Below are positions 22,656-25,389 of a stretch of DNA of 37,433 nucleotides, piece after piece (the stretch's first letter is position 1; each line of letters starts with the position of its first letter). The DNA is taken from contig DVEB01000356.1 in the NCBI GenBank assembly GCA_015295905.1, positions 1 through 37,433 of the forward strand, given 5' to 3'. The DNA comes from Synechococcales cyanobacterium M55_K2018_004 (GTDB taxonomy: Bacteria > Cyanobacteriota > Cyanobacteriia > Elainellales > Elainellaceae). The position numbers and the translations under genes are program-made. The notes below the pieces were generated by a model. That model worked only from the letters and a program-made list of their open reading frames with translations, did not search any database and was not told the DNA's origin.

Positions 22656-23456
22656 GTGGTTCAATCGTCGGACAACTGGCTGGCCCTGATGATTGGCAAC
22701 AGTCGGCTGCACTGGGGCTGGTTTCAGGGCAAGCAACTCCGGCAACAGTGGGACACTGCCCATTTCTCTGAAGCCGAGATGACAGCGGTGATTGAACACT
22801 GGATGGGCGATCGCCCCCCCGACTCTTCCCTTCCTCCCGGACTGCAAGCAGTTCCACAGGCAAAACTACCCCTCTGGCTGGCCTCCGTTGTACCTCAGCA
22901 GGTTCCACTCTGGCAGCGCTATCCTGCCACGCACCTGATCACGCGAGATCAAATTCCCCTGGCCAATCAGTACGCAACGCTAGGCATCGATCGCTCCCTA
23001 GCGCTCTGGGGAGCCGGTCAGACCTACGGCTTTCCGGTGCTGGTGATCGATGGCGGCACGGCCCTCACCTTGACTGCGGCTGACGAGCAGCAGCGCATCG
23101 TGGGTGGGGCCATTTTGCCAGGGGTGTGGCTACAACTGCGATCGCTGGCTCAACAAACTGCTGCCTTGCCGGAAGTTCCCCTAGCGCTCTCTCAAGCTTT
23201 GCCCCCTCGCTGGGCCACCAACACCCCTGAGGCTATGCAGAGTGGTGTGATGTATTCCCTCTTGGCGGGAGTGCAGGAGTTTGTGGTGGACTGGTTGGAG
23301 ACCTGGAGTGAAGGGGCGATCGCCTTTACTGGTGGGGATGGCCATTGGCTGCACCACCACCTGCAACGGCGAATACCCACAGCCGCACAACGACTGCATC
23401 ACGACCCAGGTCTTATCTTCAAAGGCATTGCTGCTTTGAGGTCAATTTTGGGTTGA
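22656..23456 (+). CDS. coaX: Type III pantothenate kinase
   Basis: A 266-aa ASKHA-fold kinase phosphorylating pantothenate, the first step of coenzyme A synthesis. Phosphate loop region LALMIGNSRLHWGWF near the N-terminus, adenosine/metal motif VLVIDGGTALTLTA, GGAILPGVWLQLRSL, and FTGGDGHWL near the C-terminus. The usual Asp of the D-x-G-N-(S/T) motif is Met here; I recall similar N-termini in other cyanobacterial CoaX proteins but cannot verify it. GTG start 3 nt after the amino-acid transporter ATPase, so it is probably co-transcribed, though the pathways are unrelated. Confidence 0.88.
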   Translation: MVQSSDNWLALMIGNSRLHWGWFQGKQLRQQWDTAHFSEAEMTAVIEHWMGDRPPDSSLPPGLQAVPQAKLPLWLASVVPQQVPLWQRYPATHLITRDQIPLANQYATLGIDRSLALWGAGQTYGFPVLVIDGGTALTLTAADEQQRIVGGAILPGVWLQLRSLAQQTAALPEVPLALSQALPPRWATNTPEAMQSGVMYSLLAGVQEFVVDWLETWSEGAIAFTGGDGHWLHHHLQRRIPTAAQRLHHDPGLIFKGIAALRSILG

Positions 23457-23550
23457 GCATCATACGACTCTCAGCGTCAACTCGATTCTTATGCGCGTAG
23501 CACTATACCAATGCAGCAATGCTCAGTTTGGACGTCTAGAGTTTGGGACT

Positions 23551-23727
23551 TCTAGAGTAGTTTTAGCCCACCCGTGGCAGGCTAAAACTAACGTCAGTTC
23601 GGGTTAAGCGGGTGTTGGGGCACCGCGTCCGGCGCGGTGCCCCAACACCCTTGCTGTTCCGTGCGCGTCGCGCACGGAACAGCAAGGGTGTCAGCTTATC
23701 CCGAATTCACGTTAAAACTACTCTAGA
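23551..23727. terminator. Hairpin interrupted by an inserted element
   Basis: Left arm TCTAGAGTAGTTTTAGCC (23551-23568). The right arm is split: GGCTAAAACT (23580-23589) and ACTCTAGA (23720-23727), with a dispersed-element copy plus a duplicated AAAACT between them. Removing the insert and one duplicate restores a perfect 18-bp complement. It lies between the convergent coaX and DUF3747 genes, so it was probably their shared terminator. Confidence 0.85.
23590..23713 (+). repeat. Dispersed element copy D (intact, with target duplication)
   Basis: A 124-bp reference copy. Left end AACGTCAGTTCGGGTTAAGC; the right end reads AACGTGAATTCGGGATAAGC on the other strand, matching the left end at 17 of 20 positions. 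Two internal hairpins: one built on TGTTGGGGCACCGCG and its complement, the other on TTGCTGTTCCGTGCGCG and its complement. Flanked by AAAACT(A) at 23584 and 23714. No coding capacity. It has the form of a miniature inverted-repeat element (MITE). Confidence 0.85.
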
Positions 23728-23792
23728 CGCGAGATGGTTATACCCTGCGGATGCAACCACCTCGCGTCTAATTTTTATCCTGAGAATTGCTA

Positions 23793-25049
23793 TTACCGAT
23801 TTACGGGAACCACGCGAGCAGGCAGGTTTTGACTCGTCAGGGTAGCTTGAAATGCTTGAGCATCCGACAGTTGACGGAACAATCCAGCCTGCATCACCAC
23901 TTGGCCATCAATAATGGTGCGGAATGCATCGGGAGCCACACTCAACAAGCGTGACTGCACATCTGGCGCAGTACTGGGCACAATCACCCGATAGCTGAAG
24001 CCCAACTGAGAAGCCAATTGGGTAGGAGTAGTCGGCCCGGTACCGCTTGACCACGGACTACTCGAGCTACTGCCAAAATTGGGGGTGCGGTTGACTGAGA
24101 CACTGGGCATTCCAGGCGGAGTTTGCCCCCGAGGAGTGGGCGGCATCGACGGAACGGGCAAGACCCCGACTTGATCAGGACGATTGGTGCGGGGGGGGGG
24201 GGGCAAAGCCACGCCATCGCCGCGCACTACAGGCCGTATCGGAACGGGCGTTTCATTGCTGCGGCTCTCGTTGGAGTTCCAGCTATTGTTGGAATTCCAG
24301 TTACCGTTAGAGTTCCAAGTTCCATTTGAGGCAGAATTCCAGGAACCATTGGTATCCGGTGCGGGAACTGGAATTTCAATAGAGCGACCAGAGTTGGCAC
24401 TGCGTGGTAGGGGGCCGGGTGGTCGGGCAGAGACGGGGGGGAGATCATCGTCACGCCAGAGGGGGGCGGTAGGACGACTCGCGGCGGCAATTAATGTGTT
24501 GAGTGGTTGGTCATTTGTGAGATAGATGTGGCCCAATTGTTGGCCATTGAATACGCGCTTGGTGAACCGCCAACCTGGATTCAAATTCACTCGGACTGGG
24601 CCATCGGCAATGGTTGAGGCGCGGCCAATTTCTAGGGCGGGGCCACGGCTGCGGTTCATCGGTTCTGCGTAGAGAACTAGATTGCTTCCACTGCGCCGGA
24701 TACGCAGACTGTACTGCAAGCCCAGATCTTGTCCTGCTACCCGGACAGAATAGCCATTGCTGTCAGGGTTGCGACCGCAAATTCCGGTGAAATCAAACGA
24801 TAGCAAGAGTGGCTCAACAACGTTGCCTGATTCTCTCCAGCAGGCGCGGCTATTACTAATTTGTTCGAGAATGATGAGACGATACAAACTGCCTCCAGCT
24901 ACGGGGGAGGCGATCGCCACAAACCGACTTTGATCCACTTCAGCCTGGTCAAACAGGGTAGCACTAGCGGGCTGTGCTAGAAAACTTCCACCAGCTCCCA
25001 CGCTTAGGGCTGCCAGAGTGCCGAGAAATAACGAACGTACAGTTTTCAT
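23793..25049 (-). CDS. Exported DUF3747 protein with C-terminal SPOR-like region
   Basis: A 418-aa secreted protein. Signal peptide MKTVRSLFLGTLAALSVGAGGSFLAQPASA, with cleavage after ASA. Residues about 30-190 fit the cyanobacterial DUF3747 family (FDQAEVDQSRFVAIASPVAGGSLYRLIILEQ, SFDFTGICGRNPDSNGYSVRVAGQDLGLQYSLRIRR). The middle is low-complexity, with W-N-S-N repeats and Pro-rich stretches. The C-terminal 80 residues (FSYRVIVPS...QAGLFRQLSDAQAFQATLTSQNLPARVV) resemble a peptidoglycan-binding SPOR repeat. The ATG at 25049 starts the signal peptide. A 13-C run on the coding strand (24191-24203) encodes PPPP. Confidence 0.82.
   Translation of the reverse strand: MKTVRSLFLGTLAALSVGAGGSFLAQPASATLFDQAEVDQSRFVAIASPVAGGSLYRLIILEQISNSRACWRESGNVVEPLLLSFDFTGICGRNPDSNGYSVRVAGQDLGLQYSLRIRRSGSNLVLYAEPMNRSRGPALEIGRASTIADGPVRVNLNPGWRFTKRVFNGQQLGHIYLTNDQPLNTLIAAASRPTAPLWRDDDLPPVSARPPGPLPRSANSGRSIEIPVPAPDTNGSWNSASNGTWNSNGNWNSNNSWNSNESRSNETPVPIRPVVRGDGVALPPPPRTNRPDQVGVLPVPSMPPTPRGQTPPGMPSVSVNRTPNFGSSSSSPWSSGTGPTTPTQLASQLGFSYRVIVPSTAPDVQSRLLSVAPDAFRTIIDGQVVMQAGLFRQLSDAQAFQATLTSQNLPARVVPVNR
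24191..24203. repeat. 13-nt homopolymer inside the DUF3747 gene
   Basis: G13 on the plus strand (C13 on the coding strand), read CCC CCC CCC CCC CGC as four Pro and an Arg. A single-base slip would remove the downstream linker and the SPOR-like domain. Confidence 0.9.
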
Positions 25050-25389
25050 AGAAGGTCTCTGTGTCAAAAATCATGCGGCTGGTAGTTCCCCCGATTCGTC
25101 AAGTCTTTTCCAATTTCATGCAACTACTGACGCGGGGATTGTTGGGAAGTTTCGCAAATAAACTCTCAAAATCCGGATCTTTTTGCTATCCCCATCGAAG
25201 CTTTATCTCGAACCTTTTGCTATTGCCCTTTTGCCATTGCTAGGAGTGCGGCGTGCTCCCAGCAATGGTGCGGGTTGCAGTGGTGCTGTGCGCTGCTGCA
25301 ACCTGCTTAATCGGTGAAGTTGCAGGATCTGCTTTATCCCAAACATTCATGTCTAGACTGAGCAACGTCTACGGTTGAGGGGGGTATTG

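Follow-up and report, generated by a model that had tools for sequence, protein, structure and literature searches.

The analysis of the window, the 37,433-nucleotide stretch of a cyanobacterial draft genome considered here, revealed one MITE nested in another, unrelated MITE in the gap separating coaX from DUF3747, two convergent genes. We are highly confident that a non-autonomous MITE, probably mobilised by an IS982-family enzyme, landed in the right hairpin-1 arm of an older MITE belonging to another family. According to this explanation, the older outer MITE would already have been in place between the two genes when the inner MITE, moved by an IS982-family DDE transposase recognising ACGTCAGTTCGGG ends, entered the right arm of hairpin 1, and the insertion would have doubled TAAAACTA, 8 bp of an AT-rich target of the form T...A. 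The reaction would have been carried out by an IS982 transposase that is now absent from, or unassembled in, the window's genome, and the outer element may owe its mobility to a DDE element similar to the one of 1420 bp in genome G007 described below. The analysis established the duplication, the restored arm, the multi-copy membership of both elements, and the presence of IS982 genes between near-identical ends in a related genome. The nesting illustrates an ordinary process clearly, and it provides a clean relative date, as the inner element arrived after the outer one.

The coaX gene, encoding type III pantothenate kinase (NF009871, E-value 1.8e-98; PF03309), occupies positions 22656-23456 of the forward strand, and the DUF3747 protein gene (PF12565, E-value 9.7e-62) occupies positions 23793-25067 of the reverse strand. 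Outer hairpin 1 lies between them, with its 18-base left arm, TCTAGAGTAGTTTTAGCC, at 23551-23568 (all features between the two genes are given on the forward strand). Its right arm is split into two half-arms, GGCTAAAACT at 23580-23589 before the insert and ACTCTAGA at 23720-23727 after it. In a deletion scan, every start from 23571 to 23621 was combined with every end from 23690 to 23730 and scored for arm complementarity. With the exception of one trivial 134-bp variant, only a 130-bp deletion, with nine equivalent placements in the duplicate, brought back 18 complementary bases out of 18. The 130 bp removed correspond to the 122-bp inner core and one 8-bp copy of TAAAACTA, the target-site duplicate, which was found at 23583-23590 on the left and at 23713-23720 on the right by both the flank-repeat reading and the deletion scan. 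The window duplicate is reduced to 6 bp only when the terminal A/T is assigned to the element. Since the direct repeats at other inner copies (GAAATTA, CTCAGTA, GATTTA and TAAGCTG) occur without that terminal T or A, these letters belong to the target and not to the element, and the window duplicate is therefore 8 bp. An earlier sequence-only reading had proposed that deletion of the element and one flanking copy restores a perfect arm, which is borne out by the scan; its duplication of 6-7 bp is correct as the mode of the family, but not for the window copy.

The inner MITE core, ACGTCAG...TTCACGT, was delimited by family comparison at 23591-23712, with TIRs ACGTCAGTTCGGGTTAAGC and ACGTGAATTCGGGATAAGC (reverse complement) of about 19 bp. 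At 122 bp, it is too short for a transposase gene. Two hairpins were predicted by folding, hairpin 1 at 23610-23650, the stem of which was also listed in a terminator scan, and hairpin 2 at 23648-23688. The end motif matched the window's genome (G000) 366 and 346 times with up to three mismatches, compared with 0 matches for a reversed control pattern, and the pattern counts together with the sampled loci revealed several hundred dispersed copies. Among 99 full copies read with their flanks, which represent an old population, exact direct repeats of 6-9 bp abutted the two ends in 30, where shuffling of the flank pairs gave an expectation of about 0.15. These duplicates were AT-rich and of the form T...A, with T as the first letter in 29 of 30 and A as the last in 27 of 30. 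The transposition with target duplication that had been proposed is thus strongly supported at the window copy and genome-wide, as well as in two other genera. We also observed three size classes of the family, 46, 77-82 and 122 bp (e.g., L064:2196, L137:2502 and L063:1502), of which the shorter ones lacked parts of the hairpins, as if entire hairpins had dropped out or had been joined at their centres. Many contig ends of the window's genome break in or beside inner copies (e.g., C10, C177, C199, C205 and C216), so the draft assembly probably hides more copies. A search of Rfam gave no match, and a search of a plasmid collection gave no match for either the inner or the outer family.

The hairpin that was split also belongs to a mobile family. 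Upon removal of the insert, the outer element (23514-23792) is 149 bp long with TIRs CAGCAATGCTCA and TGAGAATTGCTA, as delimited by nhmmer and an alignment of 11 copies, and the DUF3747 stop codon abuts its right end exactly. The rejoined window flanks matched positions 1-132 of the 133 in the outer family model (nhmmer, E-value 3.4e-30) and aligned over their full length with eleven uninterrupted outer copies elsewhere in the genome. These uninterrupted copies serve as paralogous empty sites, and they show the unbroken hairpin that the earlier reading had predicted. A search of the window's genome with the rejoined sequence returned 83 match pieces at many unrelated places. The 133-bp family consensus has the ends CAGCAATTCTCA and TGAGAATTGCTG and two hairpins followed by TAATTTTCAT. 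With its 12-bp TIRs, its small size and its dozens of copies, the outer family has the features of a MITE, including a target-site duplication of about 9 bp: several copies are flanked by 9-bp direct repeats (TTATATCAC, TATCTATTC and ACAACAAGG), which were read at L143, L072 and L076. The corresponding duplication of the window's outer copy has decayed to 6 of 9 identical positions (ATACCAATG and TTACCGATT). Outer hairpin 2, at 23725-23769 in the sequence and the predicted fold, is intact and is followed by AATTTTT at 23770-23776. Additionally, the window's outer copy contains a 16-bp tandem duplication near its left end (23525-23558) that is absent from the eleven aligned relatives.

As a candidate parent of the outer family, we found a 1420-bp element in genome G007 (L268:104-1523), which bears both perfect outer-family ends around a gene that is weakly DDE-like and contains a single in-frame stop. 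The candidacy comes from these ends and from the gene between them; the protein matched PF01609 with an E-value of 1e-4, just under the cut-off, and had no NCBIfam match. A search for the outer family in genome G003 gave 179 first-look candidates and no BLAST match, and these candidates probably represent a related family that has the same ends but differs in its stems.

The window is not the only place where the inner family has entered the outer stem. At least four further inner copies lie in hairpin-1 arms of outer-type elements, which makes this stem a recurrent target. At L141, a 122-bp inner copy occupies the same position as that of the window in the opposite orientation; at L165, a 77-bp copy with the target duplication TAAAACCA lies in the other arm, as does the inner copy at L150; and L107 is a decayed case. 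In G003, two outer-type elements (L223:442-665 and L220:382-641) are each broken by an inner copy, and at L223, where the target duplication is TATTTTC, rejoining after removal of the insert again gives a perfect stem. Inner copies were also found in outer ends at L147 and L220. The differences in orientation, size and arm between the nested cases indicate separate insertions, and the AT-rich T...A stretch of the outer stem would explain the insertion spot. In an unbiased sample of the window's genome, two of the 112 other inner copies were nested in the outer family, which is roughly what we would guess for random intergenic insertion. The rate of nesting is therefore unremarkable, and we claim no preference for the outer element, but we do claim a preferred spot within it.

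Three other explanations were weighed against an IS982-mobilised insertion into an older MITE. The hairpin may have been a dedicated bidirectional terminator of coaX and DUF3747 that was split by a chance insertion, and the convergent genes, the strong stem and the T-run after outer hairpin 2 are as such a terminator would have them. However, both hairpins and the TIRs are found again at numerous unrelated genomic positions, several of them with 9-bp duplications, and the terminator scan picked only the stem of the inner element (1 compared with 0.5 in shuffles, not clearly above). The dispersed copies refute the terminator as a gene-specific feature, and we consider this explanation very unlikely. 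The outer element may nonetheless terminate transcription. The predicted RNA fold of the region was very stable both with and without the insert. The earlier description of a split, terminator-like hairpin common to both convergent genes thus holds with respect to the split, but the hairpin is part of a second, dispersed MITE family; the split terminator was a tempting misreading that is corrected here to nested mobile DNA.

It is very unlikely too, and slightly more so, that the outer element with its insert formed once and spread as a unit, with no separate insertion at the window. Such a composite is suggested by the several outer-type copies in which the inner insert takes up almost the same position, but the inserts themselves differ, being 122 bp and forward in the window, 122 bp and reverse at L141, and 77 bp at L165, and those of L165 and L150 sit in the opposite arm. 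The letters of the target duplications also follow the local outer sequence from case to case (TAAAACTA, TAAAACCA and TATTTTC). That the duplicates and the restored arm arose by chance from AT-rich sequence is negligibly probable; the duplicates are indeed AT-rich, but neither the excess of exact repeats among the 99 full copies nor the recovery of all 18 pairs by essentially a single deletion length fits with chance.

We searched 36 genomes of the same taxonomic family for the inner family and found it in two besides that of the window (G003 and G015, from two other genera). The G015 copies were near-identical and young, with five distinct sequences among 20 sampled, and 17 of these 20 had exact target-site duplications of 6-8 bp. 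The G003 copies kept the 122-bp layout with different stems, and exact duplications of 6-7 bp were present in 18 of 23. In G015, four elements of 931-988 bp (L240, L244, L234 and L251) encode an IS982-family transposase (NF033520, E-value 4e-63, above the curated cut-off; PF13612, E-value 8e-66) between near-identical inner-type TIRs. TIRs common to the MITE and an autonomous-type IS982 element were thus found through G015, where several IS982-family copies look decayed and frameshifted. An autonomous partner in the same genome, which is usual and not required, is present in G015; no IS982 transposase was found in G003 or in the window's genome, which is a 362-contig draft, so that absence there is not certain. 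In these two genomes the parent link therefore rests on the shared ends and the size of the target duplication, and IS982 is the probable parent family. A parent IS was also sought in the window's genome through PF01609 and PF13612, and nothing with inner-type ends was matched. Likewise, end pairs 1.1-1.6 kb apart at the sampled loci enclosed apparent host genes (YlqF-like GTPase, rubrerythrin-like and SSB-like, as named from reading the translations) and no transposase.

The inner family resembles IS982 elements and IS-derived MITEs in that its TIRs are within a few bases of the G015 IS982 TIRs, its target duplication is 6-9 bp, and it combines a lack of coding capacity with a high copy number. 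In contrast to these, its interior consists of two tandem near-perfect hairpins and not of a visibly deleted transposase gene, and no parent was found in the window's genome. A limited literature search found no description of a cyanobacterial MITE derived from IS982. Nested small elements are already known in bacteria, as the BOX, RUP and SPRITE elements of S. pneumoniae insert into one another (PMC10969869); the window is a new, well-resolved example. These are also small non-coding repeats that nest mutually, some of them terminator-like; they differ in host, and the likeness drawn here concerns size, lack of coding and nesting. Nezha and other MITEs, as cited in PMC10969869, share the cyanobacterial host and are likened here in that respect. 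The present case adds exact boundaries, a target rule and an IS982 link for a high-copy cyanobacterial MITE family.

We also compared the inner stems between copies and found that they vary by matched changes on both arms in all three genomes (e.g., L207, L219, L222 and L226). Complementary double changes numbered 112 in G000, compared with 19.7 in shuffles (maximum 32), 14 compared with 1.2 in G003, and 4 compared with 0.2 in G015, where single-arm changes were absent. The change per site in G000 was 0.083 at paired and 0.102 at unpaired positions; paired sites thus lag only slightly behind unpaired ones, which does not indicate strong selection on the stem. Both orientations of the inner loops were seen, at a ratio close to 1:1 in G000 (GTC 29 and GAC 23; CGG 27 and CCG 20) and with a skew among the near-identical families. 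We slightly favour the view that the inner hairpins evolve by template switching during replication, in which one arm is copied onto the other and the loop is flipped, rather than by selection on structure. The shared ancestry of the copies inflates the double-change counts, so template switching is a lead and not a proof. Template switching is known to give matched-arm substitutions and loop inversion, both marks of the inner family (PMC8794818; PMC8604942); the systems described in these papers are RNA genes and yeast coding repeats, unlike the multi-copy bacterial MITEs considered here. If this view is correct, the inner families would serve as natural assays of template switching, each with many copies. 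Hairpins present in so many copies make it possible to quantify arm copying and loop inversion as they occur in natural genomes.

With respect to the flanking genes, CoaX was about 41-55% identical to its relatives, and among the coaX loci of 30 relatives, each fetched with flanks of about 1.5 kb, there was no case of DUF3747 next to coaX, so that these loci yielded no orthologous empty site. Within the DUF3747 reading frame, we observed a run of 13 G (window positions 24191-24203), a possible slippage site.
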